The notes beneath the pieces are model-generated. The model saw nothing but the letters and a program-made list of their open reading frames with translations. It was not told where the DNA came from and did not search any database. DNA of 64,000 bases from Streptomyces sp. DG1A-41 (lineage in GTDB: Bacteria; Actinomycetota; Actinomycetes; Streptomycetales; Streptomycetaceae), in NCBI RefSeq assembly GCF_037055355.1, contig NZ_CP146350.1, positions 8,083,001 through 8,147,000 on the forward strand, given 5' to 3'. Positions 44,560 through 54,126 of this stretch are shown one piece after another. The position numbers and the translations under genes were made by a program. Within the stretch, counting starts at the first letter, position 1; every line of letters begins with the position of its first letter.

Positions 44560-45531
44560 TCAGGAGCCGTGGTGCAGGAGCCAGCCCCGCCACGCCGACT
44601 CGGCCATCTCGCGCACTGCGCGCCGCGCGGTCCAGCCGAGTTCCCCGGCCGCCCGGGACGCCGAAGCGACGGCCCGCGGGGCGTCCCCGGGGCGGCGGCC
44701 CTCGACGAGCGGTGGCCGGCGGTCGCCGGTGGCCTCGCCGATGACCGAGATGAGCTCGCGCACCGAGACGCCCTCGCCCCGGCCGATGTTGACCGTCAGA
44801 TTGCCCACGACGCCCCCGTCGGCGAGCCGCCGGGCCGCCGCGAGATGCGCCTCGGCCAGATCGGCGACGTGAACGTAGTCACGGACGCAGGTGCCGTCCT
44901 GGGTGGGGTAGTCGTCACCGAAGATCCTGGGCGCCTCGTCGCGCGTCAGCCGGTCGAAGACCATCGGGACGATGTTGAAGACGCCCGTGTCGGCCAGTTC
45001 CGGCGCGGCGGCGCCCGCCACGTTGAAATAGCGCAGACATACGGTGGAGATCCCGTGCGCGCGGCCCGCCGCCCGCACCAGCCGCTCCCCGGCGAGCTTG
45101 GTCTCGCCGTACGGGTTCACCGGCGCACAGGGCGTGTCCTCCGTGATGAGGTCCACACCCGGGTCGCCGTACACCGCCGCTGACGACGAGAACACGAAGT
45201 GCTCGATCCCGGCCCCGGCGACCGCGCCCAGGAGGGTCACGAGACCGCCGACGTTCTCCCGGTAGTACCGCGTCGGCTGCGCGACGGACTCGGCGACCTG
45301 CTTGCGCGCCGCGAGATGCACCACACCGGTCACGCCGTGCTCGGCGAACACGCGCTTCAGCAGGTCACCGTCGAGCGACGAGCCCTCGATGAGCGGTACG
45401 TCCGCCGGAAGCCGCGCGGGCACCCCGGCCGAGAGGTCGTCCAGGGCGAGGACCCGCTCCCCGGCCTCGTTCATGGCCCTGGCCACGTGGGCCCCGATGT
45501 AGCCGGCCCCGCCGGTGATCAGCCAAGTCAT
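44560..45531 (-). CDS. galE: UDP-glucose 4-epimerase
   Basis: 323 aa extended short-chain dehydrogenase. NAD motif WLITGGAGYIGAHVARAM; VVHLAARKQVAESV; Ser-x-x SSSAAVYGD; active-site YGETK (Tyr and Lys); LRYFNVAGA; GTCVRDYVHVADLAEAH. It interconverts UDP-glucose and UDP-galactose. ATG 45531 follows TAGGGT by eight bases, so it may be leaderless. It is divergent from the polymer operon, and UDP-galactose could be a donor for the glycosyltransferase there; this link is inference. Confidence 0.93.
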   Translation of the reverse strand: MTWLITGGAGYIGAHVARAMNEAGERVLALDDLSAGVPARLPADVPLIEGSSLDGDLLKRVFAEHGVTGVVHLAARKQVAESVAQPTRYYRENVGGLVTLLGAVAGAGIEHFVFSSSAAVYGDPGVDLITEDTPCAPVNPYGETKLAGERLVRAAGRAHGISTVCLRYFNVAGAAAPELADTGVFNIVPMVFDRLTRDEAPRIFGDDYPTQDGTCVRDYVHVADLAEAHLAAARRLADGGVVGNLTVNIGRGEGVSVRELISVIGEATGDRRPPLVEGRRPGDAPRAVASASRAAGELGWTARRAVREMAESAWRGWLLHHGS

Positions 45532-45811: not shown

Positions 45812-47615
45812 TTGTCGACCGCCATCCTCACCGGTCAGCCGGTCCCCGGATCGTCGATCGAGGGCGATCTGCGGTCCCTCGGCTTCGACGTGCGGGTCGC
45901 GGCCGACGCAGCCGAGGCCGAGACCCTGCTCGCCGGGGTGCCGGGCGGGGAGCGGGTCGCCCTGGTCGACGCCCGGTTCGTGGGCCATGTGCACGCGCTG
46001 CGCCTCGGCCTCACCGACCCCCGCTTCCCGCTCGCCGCCATCCCGGGCGCCGTCACCGCACAGGCCAGGCCGCCAGGCCCTGACCCGGGCGATGGCCCGC
46101 GAGAACTCCACGGGCGGCGGCACCACCCTCGTCGACAGCCTCGCCGACCGCATTCTCACCGCCCTGGACGCCGACGGAGCCGACGTGCACCGCCCCGAGC
46201 TGGGCAGTCTCGTCGCCACCGTCCCCGCCGACCCACAGGCCCGCAACGAGGCACGGCAGGCGGTGACGGCCGTCGACGACGAGGCCGTACGCCTGAAGTC
46301 GGCCGTGAAGTCCCGCGACGGCTTCTTCACCACCTACTGCGTCAGCCCGTATTCCCGTTACCTCGCCCGCTGGTGCGCCCGCCGTGGCCTGACCCCCAAC
46401 CAGGTCACCACCGCCTCGCTGCTCACCGCCCTCATAGCGGCGGCCTGCGCGGCCACCGGCACCCGCGGCGGCTTCGTCGCGGCCGGCGTCCTGCTGATCG
46501 CGTCCTTCGTGCTGGACTGCACCGACGGCCAGCTCGCCCGCTACTCCCTGCAGTACTCCACGCTCGGCGCCTGGCTCGACGCCACCTTCGACCGGGCCAA
46601 GGAGTACGCCTACTACGCCGGTCTCGCTCTCGGTGCCGCCCGCGGCGGCGACGACGTATGGGCCCTCGCCCTCGGCGCCATGGTCCTGCAGACGTGCCGC
46701 CATGTCGTGGACTTCTCCTTCAACGAGGCCAACCACGACGCCACCGCCAACACCAGCCCCACCGCCGCCCTCTCCGACAAGCTCGACAGCGTCGGCTGGA
46801 CGGTCTGGGTGCGCCGCATGATCGTCCTGCCCATCGGCGAACGCTGGGCCATGATCGCTGTGCTCACGGCGGCCACGACCCCGCGCATCACCTTCTACGC
46901 CCTGCTCATCGGCTGCGCCTTCGCGGCGACCTACACCACGGCGGGCCGCGTGCTGCGGTCGCTGACGCGGAAGGCGCGGCGTACCGACCGGGCGGCGCGG
47001 GCACTGGCGGACCTGACGGACAGCGGGCCGGTCGCCGAGGCGCTCGCGGGGCTGCTGCGCAAGCTGCCCGCCAAGCCACCTTTCGGTGCCCGGTTCCTCG
47101 TCGCCCTGCCCGGCGCTGCTCTCGTGGTCCTCGCGGCAGCCCTCGAGCCGTACGGCAGCGCCCTGCCTGTCGCGGCAGCCGCCCTCTACGTGCTCACCTC
47201 GGCCGCCGCCGTCACCCTGCCCCTCAAAGGCGCCCTCGACTGGCTGATCCCCCCGTTCCTCCGCGCCGCGGAATACTGCACCGTCCTGATCCTGGCGGCC
47301 CACGCGGACGTGAACGGAGCCCTTCCTGCGGCTTTCGGGCTGGTGTCCGCGGTCGCCTACCATCACTACGACACGGTGTACCGCATCCGCGGCAACGCCG
47401 GAGCGCCCCCGGCCTGGCTGGTGCGTTCCATCGGGGGGCACGAAGGACGGACCCTGCTCGTCACCGTCCTCGCCGCGCTGCTCACCGCCTCGCAGTTCAC
47501 GGTCGCGCTCACGGCTCTCGCCGTGGCCGTGGCCCTGGTGGTGCTCGTCGAGAGCATCCGCTTCTGGGTGTCCGCAGGGGCACCCGCCGTACACGATGAA
47601 GGAGAACCCGCATGA
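45812..47615 (+). pseudogene. CDP-alcohol phosphatidyltransferase (with DUF5941-like C-terminus), one frameshift
   Basis: TTG 45812 (GGGAG upstream) opens a frame of ~85 residues resembling a nucleotidyltransferase-like N-domain. A net +1 shift near 46070-46073 moves into the frame holding the rest. That part has the complete CDP-alcohol transferase motif DCTDGQLAR...G..LDATFD and about ten membrane helices, the last several in a C-terminal membrane domain. The second frame ends in an ATGA overlap with the next gene, the expected operon geometry, so the shift is probably a sequence error or very recent. Proposed role: transfer of a phospho-alcohol from a CDP-activated donor, first gene of the polymer operon. 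Confidence 0.8.
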
Positions 47616-48364
47616 TCGGCCTCGTGCTGGCGGCCGGCGCCGGACGGCGTCTGCGCCCCTACACCGACAGCCTTCCCAAGGCGCTGGTGCCGGTGGGGCC
47701 CGCGGGCATAGAGGGCGAACCGACGGTTCTCGACCTGACCCTCGCCAACTTCGCCGAGGTCGGCCTCACCGAGGCCGCGGTCATCGTCGGCTACCGCAAG
47801 GAGGCCGTGTACGCGCGCAAGGAAGCGCTGGAGAAGAAGTACGGGCTCAAGCTCACCCTCATCGACAACGACAAGGCCGAGGAGTGGAACAACGCCTACT
47901 CCCTGTGGTGCGGCCGTGACGCCCTCAAGGACGGCGTGATCCTCGCCAACGGCGACACCGTCCACCCGGTCTCCGTCGAGAAGACGCTGCTCGCCGCGCG
48001 CGGCGACGGCAAGAAGATCATCCTCGCCCTGGACACCGTGAAGGACCTGGCCGACGAGGAGATGAAGGTCGTCGTCGACCCCGCCAAGGGCATGACGAAG
48101 ATCACCAAGCTGATGGAACCCGCCGAGGCCACCGGCGAGTACATCGGCGTCACCCTCATCGAGGGCGACGCGGCCCCCGAACTGGCCGACGCGCTCAAGA
48201 CCGTGTGGGAGACCGACCCGCAGCAGTTCTACGAGCACGGCTACCAGGAGCTGGTGAACCGCGGCTTCCGTATCGACGTGGCTCCGATCGGCGACGTCAA
48301 GTGGGTGGAGATCGACAACCACGACGATCTCGCCCGTGGACGGGAGATCGCATGCCAGTACTGA
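47612..48364 (+). CDS. Nucleotidyltransferase (sugar-1-phosphate / phospho-polyol cytidylyltransferase type)
   Basis: 250 aa, single GT-A-like NTP-transferase domain. LVLAAGAGRRLRPYTDSLPK carries the GxGxRL...PK nucleotide loop; ILANGDTVHPV gives the metal-binding Asp; KWVEIDNHDDLARG closes the site. Its closest types activate sugars, phosphocholine or inositol/glycerol phosphates with CTP or UTP. The flanking CDP-alcohol transferases and the glycerol-1-phosphate-dehydrogenase-like enzyme suggest CTP and a polyol phosphate as substrates. It overlaps the gene before by four bases and the next by 13. Confidence 0.85.
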   Translation: MIGLVLAAGAGRRLRPYTDSLPKALVPVGPAGIEGEPTVLDLTLANFAEVGLTEAAVIVGYRKEAVYARKEALEKKYGLKLTLIDNDKAEEWNNAYSLWCGRDALKDGVILANGDTVHPVSVEKTLLAARGDGKKIILALDTVKDLADEEMKVVVDPAKGMTKITKLMEPAEATGEYIGVTLIEGDAAPELADALKTVWETDPQQFYEHGYQELVNRGFRIDVAPIGDVKWVEIDNHDDLARGREIACQY

Positions 48365-49413
48365 CCCGGCTCATCCCCTCGCCGCTGGTCGTGGACATCC
48401 GCCCGGGTGCCCTCGACGACCTGGCGTGCGTCCTCGCCGACGAGCGCATCTCGCACTCCGGCCGCCTCGCCGTCGCGGTCAGCGGCGGCTCCGGCGCCAA
48501 GCTGCGCGAGCGCATCTCGCCCGGCATGCCCGGCGCCACCTGGTACGAGGTCGGCGGCGGCACCCTCGACGACGCGGTCCGGCTGGCGAGCGACATAAAG
48601 GCCGGCCACTACGACGCGGTCGTGGGCCTCGGCGGCGGCAAGATCATCGACTGCGCCAAGTTCGCCGCGGCACGCGTCGGCCTGCCCCTGGTCGCCGTGC
48701 CCACGAACCTCGCGCACGACGGCCTGTGCTCGCCGGTCGCCACCCTCGACAACGACGCGGGCCGCGGCTCCTACGGCGTGCCGAACCCGATCGCGGTCGT
48801 CATCGACCTGGACATCATCCGCGAGGCCCCGGTCCGCTTCGTCCGCGCCGGCATCGGCGACGCCGTCTCCAACATCTCGGCGATCGCCGACTGGGAGCTG
48901 GCGGGCCGCGTCAAGGGCGAGCGGATCGACGGACTCGCCGCGGCCATGGCCCGCCAGGCCGGTGAGGCCGTACTGCGGCACCCGGGCGGTATCGGGGACA
49001 ACAACTTCCTCCAGGTACTGGCCGAGGCGCTGGTCCTCAGCGGCATCGCCATGTCGGTGTCGGGCGACTCGCGGCCGTCCTCCGGGGCGTGCCACGAGAT
49101 CAACCACGCCTTCGACCTGCTCTACCCGAAGCGGGCCGCCGCCCACGGCGAGCAGTGCGGTCTCGGCGCGGCCTTCGCGATGTGGCTGCGCGGGGCGCAC
49201 GAGGAGTCGGCGTACATGGCCGAGGTGCTGCGCCGGCACGGGCTGCCCGTGCTGCCGGACGAGATCGGCTTCACGACGGACGAGTTCGTCAAGGCCGTCG
49301 AGTTCGCCCCGGAGACCCGGCCCGGCCGCTACACCATCCTCGAACACCTCGACCTGAACACCGAACAGATCAAGGACACCTACGCCGACTATGTCAAGGC
49401 CATCGGTAGCTGA
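48352..49413 (+). CDS. Glycerol-1-phosphate dehydrogenase-like enzyme (EgsA/AraM family)
   Basis: 353 aa in the iron-dependent alcohol dehydrogenase superfamily. GLGGGKIIDCAKFAA binds NAD(P); TNLAHDGLCSPVATL has the conserved Asp of the G1PDH branch; SGACHEINHAFDLLY and AAHGEQCGLG supply the metal-binding His residues. Family members reduce dihydroxyacetone phosphate to sn-glycerol-1-phosphate, the archaeal enantiomer, also known from AraM of Bacillus. ATG 48352 overlaps the nucleotidyltransferase end by 13 bases and the following gene starts 23 bases inside this one. Close relatives with other products (glycerol or 3-dehydroquinate-like) are less likely. Confidence 0.85.
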   Translation: MPVLTRLIPSPLVVDIRPGALDDLACVLADERISHSGRLAVAVSGGSGAKLRERISPGMPGATWYEVGGGTLDDAVRLASDIKAGHYDAVVGLGGGKIIDCAKFAAARVGLPLVAVPTNLAHDGLCSPVATLDNDAGRGSYGVPNPIAVVIDLDIIREAPVRFVRAGIGDAVSNISAIADWELAGRVKGERIDGLAAAMARQAGEAVLRHPGGIGDNNFLQVLAEALVLSGIAMSVSGDSRPSSGACHEINHAFDLLYPKRAAAHGEQCGLGAAFAMWLRGAHEESAYMAEVLRRHGLPVLPDEIGFTTDEFVKAVEFAPETRPGRYTILEHLDLNTEQIKDTYADYVKAIGS

Positions 49414-50170
49414 ACTCCGCCCCGTCGTTCACCCCGCGGGGGTGAAGGACCGGCGCAGCGGTGAGCACTGGATGGGACGCCTCTACATGCGTGAGGTGTC
49501 CCTGCGGGTCGACCGCTACCTGGTCAACACCCGGGTCACGCCCAACCAGCTCACCTACCTGATGACCGTCTTCGGTGTGCTCGCGGCCCCGGCACTTCTC
49601 GTGCCGGGGATCCCGGGCGCCGTGCTCGGCGTCGTCATGGTCCAGATGTACCTCCTGCTGGACTGCGTCGACGGCGAGATCGCGCGCTGGAAGAAGCAGT
49701 ACTCCCTCAACGGCGTCTACCTGGACCGTGTCGGCGCCTACCTCACCGACGCCGCGGTGCTCGTCGGCTTCGGCCTGCGCGCCGCCGACTTGTGGGGCAG
49801 CGGCCGGATCGACTGGCTGTGGGCCTTCCTCGGCACCCTGGCCGCCCTCGGCGCCATCCTGATCAAGGCCGAGACCGACCTCGTCGGTGTCGCCCGGCAC
49901 CAGGCAGGGAAGCCGCCGGTCAAGGAGGCTGCCGCCGAGATGCGCTCGTCCGGCATGGCACTGGCCCGCAGGGCCGCCGCCGCGCTCAAGTTCCACCGGC
50001 TGATCCTCGGCATCGAGGCGTCCCTGCTGATCCTGGTCCTGGCGATAGTCGACCACGCCCGCGGCGACCTGTTCTTCTCCCGGCTCGGCGTCGCGGTGCT
50101 GGCCGGCATCGCGCTGGTGCAGACCCTGCTGCACCTCGTGTCCATCCTCGCTTCGAGCAGGCTGAAGTGA
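49391..50170 (+). CDS. CDP-alcohol phosphatidyltransferase, second copy, variant motif
   Basis: 259 aa integral membrane protein with about six helices. The motif reads LDCVDGEIAR...NGVYLDRVGAY: the first three Asp are present, but the fourth (expected three residues after LD-R-V-G) is Ala. The fourth Asp is regarded as the catalytic base, so this copy either uses another residue, belongs to a variant subfamily, or is regulatory. It starts inside the previous gene, showing translational coupling. Likely inserts a phospho-alcohol from a CDP donor into a lipid or growing polymer. Confidence 0.85.
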   Translation: MSRPSVAELRPVVHPAGVKDRRSGEHWMGRLYMREVSLRVDRYLVNTRVTPNQLTYLMTVFGVLAAPALLVPGIPGAVLGVVMVQMYLLLDCVDGEIARWKKQYSLNGVYLDRVGAYLTDAAVLVGFGLRAADLWGSGRIDWLWAFLGTLAALGAILIKAETDLVGVARHQAGKPPVKEAAAEMRSSGMALARRAAAALKFHRLILGIEASLLILVLAIVDHARGDLFFSRLGVAVLAGIALVQTLLHLVSILASSRLK

Positions 50171-50175
50171 GCGGC

Positions 50176-51048
50176 ATGAAGGTCGGCGCCGTCATCATCA
50201 CCATGGGCAACCGCCCCGACGAACTGCGCGCCCTGCTCGACTCCGTGGCCAAGCAGGACGGCGACCCCGTCGAGGTGGTCGTCGTCGGCAACGGCTCGCC
50301 CGTCCCGGACGTCCCCGAGGGCGTCCGCACGATCGAGCTGCCCGAGAACCTCGGCATCCCCGGCGGCCGCAACGTCGGCATCGAGGCCTTCGGCCCCGCC
50401 GGCCGGGACGTCGACATCCTGCTGTTCCTCGACGACGACGGCCTGCTGGCCGGCCACGACACCGCAGAGCTGTGCCGCAAGGCCTTCGATGCCGACCCGA
50501 AGCTCGGCATCATCAGCTTCCGCATAGCCGACCCGGACACCGGCGTCACCCAGCGCCGGCACGTGCCCCGGCTGCGCGCCGCCGACCCGATGCGCTCCTC
50601 CCGGGTCACCACCTTCCTCGGCGGCGCCAACGCCGTCCGCACCCGGGTCTTCGCCGACGTCGGCGGACTTCCGGACGAGTTCTTCTACGCACACGAGGAA
50701 ACCGACCTGGCATGGCGGGCCCTCGACGCGGGCTGGATGATCGACTACCGGTCCGACATGGTGCTGTACCACCCGACGACCGCTCCCTCGCGGCACGCGG
50801 TCTACCACCGCATGGTCGCCCGCAACCGCGTCTGGCTCGCCCGCCGCAACCTCCCCGCGCTCCTCGTCCCCGTCTACCTCGGCGTGTGGCTGCTGCTCAC
50901 CCTCGTACGCCGTCCCTCCCGCTCCGCCCTGCGCGCCTGGTTCGGCGGATTCCGCGAAGGCTGGACCACCTCGTGCGGACGCCGCCTGCCTATGAAGTGG
51001 CGTACGGTGTGGCGGCTGACCCGACTGGGCCGGCCCCCCGTCATCTGA
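50176..51048 (+). CDS. Family 2 glycosyltransferase
   Basis: 290 aa. GT-A fold: VGAVIITMGNRPDELRALLD, NLGIPGGRNVGIEA, LLFLDDDGLL (DxD metal site), then FLGGANAVRTRVFADVGGLP and FFYAHEETDLAWRALDAGW (the ED acceptor-side motif). A hydrophobic helix near residues 238-255 may anchor it to the membrane. ATG 50176 is taken; a GTG at 50167 overlaps the previous stop (GTGA) and is an equal alternative. It probably adds a sugar to the lipid or polymer made by the operon. Confidence 0.9.
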   Translation: MKVGAVIITMGNRPDELRALLDSVAKQDGDPVEVVVVGNGSPVPDVPEGVRTIELPENLGIPGGRNVGIEAFGPAGRDVDILLFLDDDGLLAGHDTAELCRKAFDADPKLGIISFRIADPDTGVTQRRHVPRLRAADPMRSSRVTTFLGGANAVRTRVFADVGGLPDEFFYAHEETDLAWRALDAGWMIDYRSDMVLYHPTTAPSRHAVYHRMVARNRVWLARRNLPALLVPVYLGVWLLLTLVRRPSRSALRAWFGGFREGWTTSCGRRLPMKWRTVWRLTRLGRPPVI

Positions 51049-51153
51049 CAAGCTCGTATCCGGGAATATCCGGGAGCCCCCGGGCCGTACCCTGGCCCCC
51101 GGCTCATGCAGGCCCGGACAGGCCGCGCATCTCGAAGACGAAAGTTTCCACTA

Positions 51154-52083
51154 GTGAGTGAGACAACGCACGACGCCCCGGTCGCGGTGAGCGCGCCCGC
51201 GGCGCCCGACGAGGGCCTCACGGCGCAGGAACTCGCCGCCAAGCACGGGCTGAGCGTGAGCGGCGCCCGGCCGTCCCTCATCGAGTACGTCCGTCAGCTC
51301 TGGGACCGGCGGCACTTCATCCTCGCCTTCTCCCGCGCGAAGCTGACCGCCCAGTACAGCCAGGCCAAGCTCGGCCAGCTGTGGCAGGTGGCCACACCGC
51401 TGCTGAACGCGGCCGTCTACTTCTTCATCTTCGGCCTGCTCCTGGAGGCCGACCGGGGCATGTCCCGCGAGGTGTACATCCCGTTCCTGGTCACGGGCGT
51501 CTTCGTGTTCACCTTCACGCAGAGCTCGGTGATGGCGGGCGTGCGCGCGATCTCCGGCAACCTCGGTCTGGTCCGCGCCCTGCACTTCCCGCGTGCCTCG
51601 CTGCCGATCTCCTTCGCGCTCCAGCAGCTCCAGCAGCTGCTGTTCTCGATGATCGTGCTGTTCGCCATCGCGGTCGGCTTCGGCCACTACCCGGACCTGT
51701 CCTGGCTGCTGATCGTGCCGGTGCTCGCCCTCCAGTTCTGCTTCAACACCGGCCTCGCGCTGATCATGGCCCGGGCGGGCTCCAAGACCCCGGACCTCGC
51801 GCAGCTGATGCCGTTCGTGATGCGGACGTGGATGTACGCGTCCGGGGTGATGTTCTCCATCCCGATCTTCCTCGCGGACAAGCCGGCCTGGATGGCGAAC
51901 GTCCTGCAGTGGAACCCGGCCGCGATCTACATGGACCTGACGCGCTTCGCCCTCATCGACGACTACGACCAGAAGTACCTGCCCGACCACGTGTGGGCGG
52001 CCGCGGGCGGCTGGGCCGTGCTGTTCGCCCTGGGCGGCTTCGTGTACTTCTGGAAGGCGGAGGAGAGGTACGGCCGTGGCTGA
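51154..52083 (+). CDS. ABC-2 type polysaccharide/teichoic-acid exporter permease (TagG/RfbD-like)
   Basis: 309 aa. A ~45-residue cytoplasmic N-tail is followed by LIEYVRQLWDRRHFILAFSR and TAQYSQAKLGQLWQVATPLL, the entry to ABC-2 permeases of the TagG/Wzm class, and six transmembrane helices. QWNPAAIYMDLTRFALIDDY is typical of the family's last periplasmic segment. GTG 51154 has a weak ribosome site. The stop overlaps the ATPase start by eight bases. It forms the channel for export of the operon's product. Confidence 0.9.
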   Translation: MSETTHDAPVAVSAPAAPDEGLTAQELAAKHGLSVSGARPSLIEYVRQLWDRRHFILAFSRAKLTAQYSQAKLGQLWQVATPLLNAAVYFFIFGLLLEADRGMSREVYIPFLVTGVFVFTFTQSSVMAGVRAISGNLGLVRALHFPRASLPISFALQQLQQLLFSMIVLFAIAVGFGHYPDLSWLLIVPVLALQFCFNTGLALIMARAGSKTPDLAQLMPFVMRTWMYASGVMFSIPIFLADKPAWMANVLQWNPAAIYMDLTRFALIDDYDQKYLPDHVWAAAGGWAVLFALGGFVYFWKAEERYGRG

Positions 52084-52864
52084 GCAGAAGCAGGACGAAC
52101 GGATCCCCACGGTCGTCGCGGACGACCTGCACATCGTCTACCGCGTCAACGGCGCCAAGACCGGCAAGGGCAGCGCCACCGCCGCCCTCAGCCGCATCCT
52201 GAAGCGGGGCTCCGACGACGCGGCGCGGGGCGTGCGCAAAGTGCACGCCGTACGAGGCGTCTCCTTCGTGGCGTACCGCGGCGAGGCCATCGGCCTGATC
52301 GGCTCCAACGGCTCCGGCAAGTCGACCCTGCTGCGCGCCATCGCCGGCCTGCTGCCCGCCGAGCAGGGCAAGGTCTACACCGACGGCCAGCCCTCGCTGC
52401 TGGGCGTCAACGCGGCCCTGATGAACGACCTCACCGGCGAACGGAACGTCATATTGGGCGGGCTCGCCATGGGCATGTCCCGGGAGGAGATCAAGGAGCG
52501 CTACCAGGACATCGTCGACTTCTCCGGCATCAACGAGAAGGGCGACTTCATCACCCTGCCCATGCGCACCTACTCCTCCGGCATGGCGGCCCGTCTCCGC
52601 TTCTCCATCGCAGCGGCCAAGGACCACGACGTCCTGATGATCGACGAGGCCCTCGCCACCGGCGACCGCAAGTTCCAGAAGCGCTCCGAGGACCGCATCC
52701 GGGAGCTGCGCAAGGAAGCGGGCACCGTGTTTCTGGTCAGTCACAACAACAAGTCGATCCGCGACACCTGCAACCGCGTCCTGTGGCTGGAACGCGGCGA
52801 GCTGCGGATGGACGGCCCGACCGACGAGGTGCTCAAGGAGTACGAGAAGTTCACCGGAAAGTAG
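52076..52864 (+). CDS. ABC exporter ATPase (TagH/RfbE-like)
   Basis: 262 aa. Walker A GLIGSNGSGKSTLLRAIAGL, an RTYSSGMAARLRFSIA signature (degenerate ABC signature typical of polymer exporters), Walker B DVLMIDEALATGD and the switch His in FLVSHNNKS. Lacks the C-terminal substrate-binding extension of long Wzt proteins, so substrate choice is not set by such a domain. Pairs with the upstream permease. Followed by a strong terminator that ends the operon. Confidence 0.93.
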   Translation: MAEQKQDERIPTVVADDLHIVYRVNGAKTGKGSATAALSRILKRGSDDAARGVRKVHAVRGVSFVAYRGEAIGLIGSNGSGKSTLLRAIAGLLPAEQGKVYTDGQPSLLGVNAALMNDLTGERNVILGGLAMGMSREEIKERYQDIVDFSGINEKGDFITLPMRTYSSGMAARLRFSIAAAKDHDVLMIDEALATGDRKFQKRSEDRIRELRKEAGTVFLVSHNNKSIRDTCNRVLWLERGELRMDGPTDEVLKEYEKFTGK

Positions 52865-53229: not shown

Positions 53230-54126
53230 GGGAACCGGCACGGCGCGCGCCCTCGATCCGGAGCGCGGCACACTCGGCAAGGCCGCGGGCGAGAACTTCC
53301 CGGTGGCTCCGTTCTTCCTGCCCAGGGCCTGGCGCACCGACCTCATGGCGGTCTACGGCTTCGCCCGCCTCGTCGACGACATCGGCGACGGCGACCTGGC
53401 CCCCGGCGGGGCCGACGCCCGCCTGCTCGGTGTCTCACCGCAGCAGGCCGAGGACCGGCTGGTTTTGCTGGACGCCTTCGAGGCCGACCTGCGCAGGGTC
53501 TTCGACTCGGCCCCGCGCCATCCCCTGCTGCGCCGCCTCCAGCCGACCGTCCGCCGCCGCTGCCTGACCCCCGAGCCGTTCCTCGGCCTGATCGCCGCCA
53601 ACCGCCAGGACCAGCTGGTCGGCCGGTACGAGACCTACGACGACCTCCTCGCCTACTGCGAGCTCTCCGCCAACCCCGTCGGCCGTCTCGTCCTCGCCGT
53701 CACCGGCACCTCGACGCCCGAGCGGATCCGCCGCTCCGACATGATCTGCACCGCCCTCCAGGTCGTCGAGCACCTCCAGGACGTGGCCGAGGACCTCGGC
53801 CGCGACCGCGTTTACCTGCCCGCCGCCGACATGAAACGCTTCCACGTCCAGGAGGCGGACCTCGCCACGAAATCCGCCGGTGCGTCGGTCCGTGCGCTGA
53901 TTGCGTACGAAGCGCAAAGGGCCCTGGATCTCCTGAATGAAGGCGCCCCCCTCGTGGGTAGCGTCCACGGCAGGCTGAAGCTGCTGCTCGCAGGGTTCGT
54001 GGCGGGGGAAGGGCGGCCGTCCGCGCGATCGCCGCCGCCGATTACGACGTACTTCCCGGCCCGCCCAAGCCCGGCAAGGTCCAGTTGCTGCGTGAGGTGG
54101 GCGTGACTCTGCGAGGAGAGGGGTGA
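53225..54126 (+). CDS. hpnC: HpnC, squalene-synthase-like hydroxysqualene synthase, 3' frameshift
   Basis: About 300 aa when repaired. In the HpnCDE route HpnD makes presqualene diphosphate from two FPP, HpnC converts it to hydroxysqualene and HpnE reduces that to squalene. Asp-rich motif YGFARLVDDIGDG, CELSANPVGRLVLAVTG and VVEHLQDVAEDLGRDRVYLP are intact. As sequenced the frame shifts at a G run (54004-54008): one G is missing, the tail becomes unrelated and ends at 54106. Restoring it yields AVRAIAAADYDVLPGPPKPG and a stop at 54126 that overlaps hpnD by four bases. That geometry argues for a sequence error or recent mutation. Confidence 0.9.

Follow-up and report, generated by a model that had tools for sequence, protein, structure and literature searches.

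A conserved seven-gene Streptomyces operon and a candidate sn-glycerol-1-phosphate route to CDP-glycerol for wall polymers

In Bacillus and Staphylococcus, poly(glycerol phosphate) wall teichoic acid is made by the GpsA/TagD/TagB/TagF/TagGH pathway, and in the pneumococcal capsule module Gtp1-3 a reductase and a nucleotidyltransferase yield CDP-2-glycerol for a surface polymer. The locus described here lies in a 64,000-nt stretch of the Streptomyces sp. DG1A-41 genome, a single contig of 9.0 Mb (NZ_CP146350.1, 8,083,001 to 8,147,000; ‘the window’, to which the positions below refer). Seven genes on the + strand (45812-52864) encode, in this order, a CDP-alcohol phosphotransferase (CDP-AP) carrying DUF5941 (CDP-AP1), a nucleotidyltransferase (NT), a dehydrogenase resembling sn-glycerol-1-phosphate dehydrogenase (G1PDH), a second CDP-AP (CDP-AP2), a GT2 family glycosyltransferase, and exporter components of TagG and TagH type. 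Genes, order and coordinates are those of the original prediction, which was made from the sequence of the window.

Gene context strongly suggests a conserved, coherent variant of teichoic acid synthesis. On balance, we favour a reading in which the operon makes and uses CDP-glycerol derived from sn-glycerol-1-phosphate (G1P) for a wall polymer of teichoic acid type, the dehydrogenase and NT together replacing glycerol-3-phosphate (G3P) and TagD. The original prediction left the product as a surface glycan or lipid; in relatives, the presence of TagF, LCP (LytR-CpsA-Psr) ligase, GDPD and TagGH next to these genes favours the wall polymer, whereas for the lipid no GGGPS/PcrB match was found in the genome. 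A wider version is put forward tentatively: Streptomyces and many other actinobacteria might build sn-1 wall teichoic acids through CDP-activated G1P with TagD replaced, their TagF using the mirror-image donor and a CDP-AP lineage without the fourth motif Asp belonging to the same pathway.

Operon layout and conservation

The features of the operon, followed by its divergent neighbour, are:

45812-46063, +: N-terminal piece of CDP-AP1, in a different frame from the remainder; 81-99% identical to the corresponding N-termini in the relatives compared
45987-47615, +: CDP-AP1 with C-terminal DUF5941, homologous from ~46068 (PF01066, 8.7e-10; PF19365, 4.2e-93)
47612-48364, +: NT, LicC/IPCT/PntC-like, candidate CTP:glycerol-1-phosphate cytidylyltransferase
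48352-49413, +: sn-glycerol-1-phosphate dehydrogenase-like protein of the EgsA/AraM kind (NF002022, 1.2e-72, 244.8 bits)
49391-50170, +: CDP-AP2, CDP-alcohol phosphotransferase-like, fourth motif Asp replaced by Ala (PF01066, 8.1e-08)
50176-51048, +: GT2 family glycosyltransferase (PF00535, 2.9e-12)
51106-52083, +: TagG/Wzm-type ATP-binding cassette (ABC) permease (PF01061)
52076-52864, +: TagH-type ABC ATPase (best model TagH, NF010066, 4.9e-55, 186.7 bits against a cut-off of 320)
44560-45528, -: GalE (TIGR01179, 308 bits, over the cut-off of 262.3)

From these coordinates four of the six junctions overlap (CDP-AP1/NT by 4 nt, NT/dehydrogenase by 13 nt, dehydrogenase/CDP-AP2 by 23 nt and TagG/TagH by 8 nt), with gaps of 5 nt between CDP-AP2 and GT2 and 57 nt between GT2 and TagG, and the earlier description of tightly packed, mostly overlapping genes holds. 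The Pfam families represented are CDP-OH_P_transf (twice), DUF5941, NTP_transferase, Fe-ADH_2, Glycos_transf_2, ABC2_membrane and ABC_tran. The divergent galE lies upstream and the hopanoid genes hpnC, hpnD and hpnE downstream.

A high-score match to the dehydrogenase was found in all 61 Streptomyces genomes searched and a match to NT in 59 of 61 genomes of the family. The complete seven-gene set is present in 76 of 80 named Streptomyces loci, picked as the best NT matches, and the remaining four are without TagH. NT is adjacent to the dehydrogenase in 18 of 20 non-genus stretches around the latter, with L059 and the distant L062 as the two stretches that lack it, and TagG and TagH matches are both present in 11 of the 20, some of which stop at a contig end. 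Given its conservation across Streptomyces, the arrangement is not due to chance. Gene calls in relatives’ stretches are approximate, made by a simple script, with Pfam run on representatives only.

The dehydrogenase–nucleotidyltransferase pair and TagF

The best NCBIfam model for the dehydrogenase is that of the archaeal sn-glycerol-1-phosphate dehydrogenase (NF002022), which exceeds the glycerol dehydrogenase model (90.5 bits) by 154 bits, and solved G1P dehydrogenases are its top PDB matches. At the D/H/H positions, which we take to be the metal ligands of G1PDH, Asp is kept in all but one of 26 aligned sequences (L059 has Glu) and both His in all 26, while a DG..SP motif is present in 24 (DG..SS in the distant L062 and L175). 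Read from its family, the enzyme likely reduces dihydroxyacetone phosphate (DHAP) to G1P, the first step of the candidate pathway. Operon relatives score 261 (L057) and 253 (L053) with NF002022, and lower scores are seen for bacterial proteins of Cytobacillus (219) and N. vulgaris (196) and for L062 (114), none of the five reaching the equivalog cut-off of 413. Outside Actinomycetes, where relatives were covered through plasmid records only, the gene tables of two distant G1PDH neighbourhoods, which are incomplete, list no nucleotidyltransferase, and a Prevotella stretch is unannotated.

NT is nearest by sequence to LicC, IPCT and PntC, and the same three are among its best matches by fold, headed by the cytidylyltransferase PntC; fold and nearest solved relatives are both those of LicC/IPCT/PntC-type cytidylyltransferases. 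Among 296 class genomes taken in a single draw, dehydrogenase and NT occur together in 71 of the 73 that hold either (‘pair genomes’). The dehydrogenase search listed 73 genomes, reduced to 72 by leaving out G322 (distant, 76 bits), and in the two unpaired genomes (G142, dehydrogenase only; G155, NT only) the gene lies at a contig end. Taken together, fold, fixed partnership and the link to TagF point to NT as the enzyme that likely joins G1P and CTP to give CDP-glycerol of that configuration.

TagF (PF04464) was found in 70 of the 73 pair genomes and in 46 of the 223 without the pair. From this co-occurrence and from gene linkage, TagF-type glycerophosphotransferases would be the main users of CDP-glycerol, their genes lying next to the operon in sister genera and at a distance from it in the window’s own genome. 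Among non-genus genomes of the family TagF is present in 48 of 51: in 48 of the 49 with NT (G364 being the exception) and in neither of the two without (G367 and G370, where the dehydrogenase was not among the searches), an overlap of absences with an estimated chance of 0.0024, kinship ignored. TagF lies ~4 kb from NT by place in five genomes of two sister genera (G354, G380, G357, G372 and G382). In the four of these that were read (L178, L179, L180 and L182) a TagF-like gene sits beside CDP-AP1 on the opposite strand, at the position of GalE in the window, divergent from an identical seven-gene order. At least three genomes from two further families (G126, G109 and G095) have TagF 3.4-5.5 kb from the dehydrogenase, and G066 has it 20.9 kb away, a lower bound on linkage that comes from comparing 45 dehydrogenase places (44 non-genus and the window’s own) with 56 of the TagF places. 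The G126 stretch (L181) brings together NT, G1PDH, TagGH, TagF, LCP and GDPD and is without a CDP-AP motif. Because TagF is present while CDP-AP2 goes unmatched at E 1e-20 in five pair genomes (G126, G153, G166, G254 and G295), TagF rather than CDP-AP2 appears to be the general user; in the four of these that were partly read, TagF lies inside the stretch only in G126.

In the window’s own genome four TagF genes score above the cut-off, all at 3.50-3.52 Mb. Beside them (~3.52 Mb; L171, 6439-10377) are another TagGH and another GalE, paralogues to which the window proteins are 84% (ATPase, over 255 residues), 69% (permease, over 283 residues) and 69% (GalE) identical. No TagD-like hit at E 1e-15 was obtained in 61 of the 70 genomes with pair and TagF, this one included; here no protein reached the cut-off (165.4) of the TagD model TIGR01518, the two hits scoring 37.2 bits (an HldE-type protein) and 35.9 bits. 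Six weak TagD hits that were inspected, from four of nine Streptomyces genomes with such hits and from two other genera, are TagD-like by eye; the four Streptomyces proteins (L183, L184, L185 and L186) are small, with 62-68 bits and a GDDW motif.

Several observations weigh against the favoured reading. The dehydrogenase falls below the NF002022 equivalog cut-off (244.8 against 413 bits), and the NT fold is common to sugar-1-phosphate enzymes. Three of the 73 pair genomes (G156, G218 and G301) are without TagF, and 46 of 116 TagF genomes are without the pair: 20 of these have a TagD-like hit and 26 do not, and therefore either a third source of CDP-glycerol exists or TagF takes another donor. 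TagD-like hits at E 1e-15 occur in 9 of 73 pair genomes, all nine of them Streptomyces with hits of 62-68 bits, and in 32 of 223 others, and at this level there is no exclusion. At 100 bits the counts are 0 of 73 and 22 of 223, with the line drawn after the list had been seen; a strict exclusion between TagD and the pair, which holds at this post hoc line and fails at E 1e-15, was dropped. In the window’s genome 4.6 Mb separate the TagF genes from the operon, IspD or IspD-SDR (CDP-ribitol-like) genes are present in some relatives as well, and all co-occurrence counts are raw genome counts that ignore kinship. For the originally proposed path from DHAP through G1P and CDP-glycerol to transfer and export, family assignment, fold and co-occurrence are supportive, with the missed equivalog cut-off on the other side.

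CDP-alcohol phosphotransferases and rival explanations

CDP-AP1 is split in the window, its N-terminal ~84 residues being in frame from 45812 and the remainder in another frame from ~46068, which places the shift relative to relatives at 46064-46067. Both parts lie within one main open reading frame in 78 of 83 relatives (the exceptions are three non-genus loci, L088 and L114) and in a single frame in the two nearest genomes read, and the counterpart in a named record is a 605-aa protein. The shift is probably a sequencing error. A second one is seen in hpnC (54001-54031), where three relatives are continuous, and because both fall within 8 kb, errors in the assembly sequence are suggested. 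DUF5941 is a stand-alone 213-aa gene in L049 (11059-11697), and CDP-AP1 of Streptomyces is therefore a fusion of CDP-AP and DUF5941; no Pfam model matched the 318-aa protein at the matching place of L046 (6421-7374). The CDP-alcohol transferase family predicted for the first gene is confirmed, with the corrections that the gene is frame-shifted here and fused to DUF5941. Its motif (DxxDGxxAR..GxxxDxxxD) is intact and its nearest solved structures are AF2299 and IPCT-DIPPS. The predicted structure of CDP-AP1/DUF5941 had a mean predicted local distance difference test (pLDDT) score of 57 and was set aside.

CDP-AP2 departs from the same motif, with Ala in place of the last Asp in the window. This position is His in all 12 non-genus hits of a first set, all 20 loci of a second set and all four sister-genus loci, while first-set rows labelled as genus have 116 Ala and four His, the latter comprising three genus genomes (L029, L030 and L033) and a second copy of a non-genus locus (L042). 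The probable base in this superfamily is the last Asp, and CDP-AP2, in which it is replaced, would therefore either employ a different base or have a different role. Nine of 20 loci with CDP-AP2 but not the pair (L149, L150, L154, L155, L160, L161, L162, L164 and L166) carry a different NT, 24-29% identical to that of the window, and no G1PDH; IspD-SDR fusions (CDP-ribitol-like) were found in two CDP-AP2 loci without the pair (L152, 12288-13796; L167, 2-1174). Since CDP-AP2 keeps company with these other enzymes, the CDP-AP2/GT2 module may work with several sources of CDP-polyol. Among the families found repeatedly in the vicinity of CDP-AP2 or of the pair are LCP ligases, UDP-glucose dehydrogenase, GDPD, another GT2 and a TagF-like protein in divergent orientation. 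At a guess, a linkage, primer or side unit is assembled on the lipid carrier by CDP-AP1, CDP-AP2 and GT2; TagGH would then likely export the polymer and, by analogy, LCP would attach it to the wall.

If G1P-derived CDP-glycerol were used only by the two CDP-APs of the operon, the product exported by TagGH would be a G1P-containing phosphoglycolipid or lipid-linked oligosaccharide and no teichoic acid. CDP-AP enzymes sit in the membrane and act on lipids or polyols, the nearest solved structures of these two include phosphatidylinositol-phosphate synthases as well as AF2299 and IPCT-DIPPS, and CDP-AP2 is present in 66 of the 73 pair genomes. The three pair genomes without TagF and the distance of TagF from the operon in the window’s genome point the same way. 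However, five of the seven pair genomes without a CDP-AP2 match have TagF, 35 genomes without the pair hold CDP-AP2 as well, and TagF, LCP and GDPD are neighbours in relatives, making this outcome rather unlikely. We also consider it improbable that NT activates another phospho-alcohol, such as phosphocholine, inositol phosphate or a phosphonate, with the dehydrogenase acting on a related substrate. LicC, IPCT and PntC are close folds, the CDP-APs resemble DIPPS and archaetidylinositol-phosphate synthases, and NT is annotated in S. fungicidicus as phosphocholine cytidylyltransferase family; set against this are the G1PDH-like enzyme as a fixed partner of NT, the association with TagF and, within the operon, to which this search was confined, a lack of choline kinase, inositol-phosphate synthase and phosphonate genes.

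The downstream genes raise the prospect that the operon adds a glycerophospho head group to hopanoids, and 77 of the 80 named Streptomyces loci do have hpnC, hpnD and hpnE matches within the stretch. None of the 20 non-genus stretches (up to 19 kb) has an hpn match and the context is one of TagGH and TagF; with hpn genes near the operon only in the genus loci read, hopanoid tailoring is disfavoured as very unlikely. Least credible of all is a supply of G1P for archaeal-type or PcrB-type prenylglyceryl ethers. The dehydrogenase does belong to the G1PDH family, and AraM works with PcrB in B. subtilis, but the neighbour here is a nucleotidyltransferase, and GGGPS/PcrB (PF01884) gave no match in the window’s genome while 7 of 14 control genomes were positive, on which basis ether-lipid use of G1P was rejected.

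Comparison with known systems

The use of G1P or G3P is the classic divide between archaeal and bacterial lipids, and across a major antibiotic-producing genus this operon appears to supply a wall polymer of bacteria with G1P. The premise that bacterial teichoic acids use G3P applies to wall teichoic acid; it does not extend to lipoteichoic acid, which contains sn-glycerol-1-phosphate units from phosphatidylglycerol, and for this reason any novelty would lie in the CDP-activated, cytoplasmic G1P route. If correct, the favoured reading would explain the CDP-glycerol supply of many actinobacteria without TagD, predict the configuration of their teichoic acid, and assign a function to genes whose present annotations are phosphocholine cytidylyltransferase family, iron-containing alcohol dehydrogenase and DUF5941.

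The likeness to Gtp1-3 is one of described function, with glycerol-2-phosphate there and glycerol-1-phosphate proposed here. With EgsA of archaea and AraM of B. subtilis the operon dehydrogenase shares its best family model, the D/H/H positions and the DG..SP motif, but it is partnered with a cytidylyltransferase-like protein, scores under the equivalog level and belongs to a genome without a GGGPS/PcrB match. IPCT-DIPPS of Archaeoglobus and Thermococcales likewise combines cytidylyltransferase and CDP-AP chemistry, and NT and both CDP-APs resemble its two halves; in contrast, the operon has separate genes, a dehydrogenase partner and an exporter, and no inositol-phosphate gene. The wall teichoic acid pathway of Bacillus and Staphylococcus is matched in the proposed donor, CDP-glycerol, in TagF-type polymerases encoded in the genome, in a putative TagGH-type exporter and, in some relatives, in LCP ligases near the genes; it differs in that a G1PDH-like enzyme and a LicC-type NT would replace G3P and TagD, and in that the operon holds two CDP-APs.

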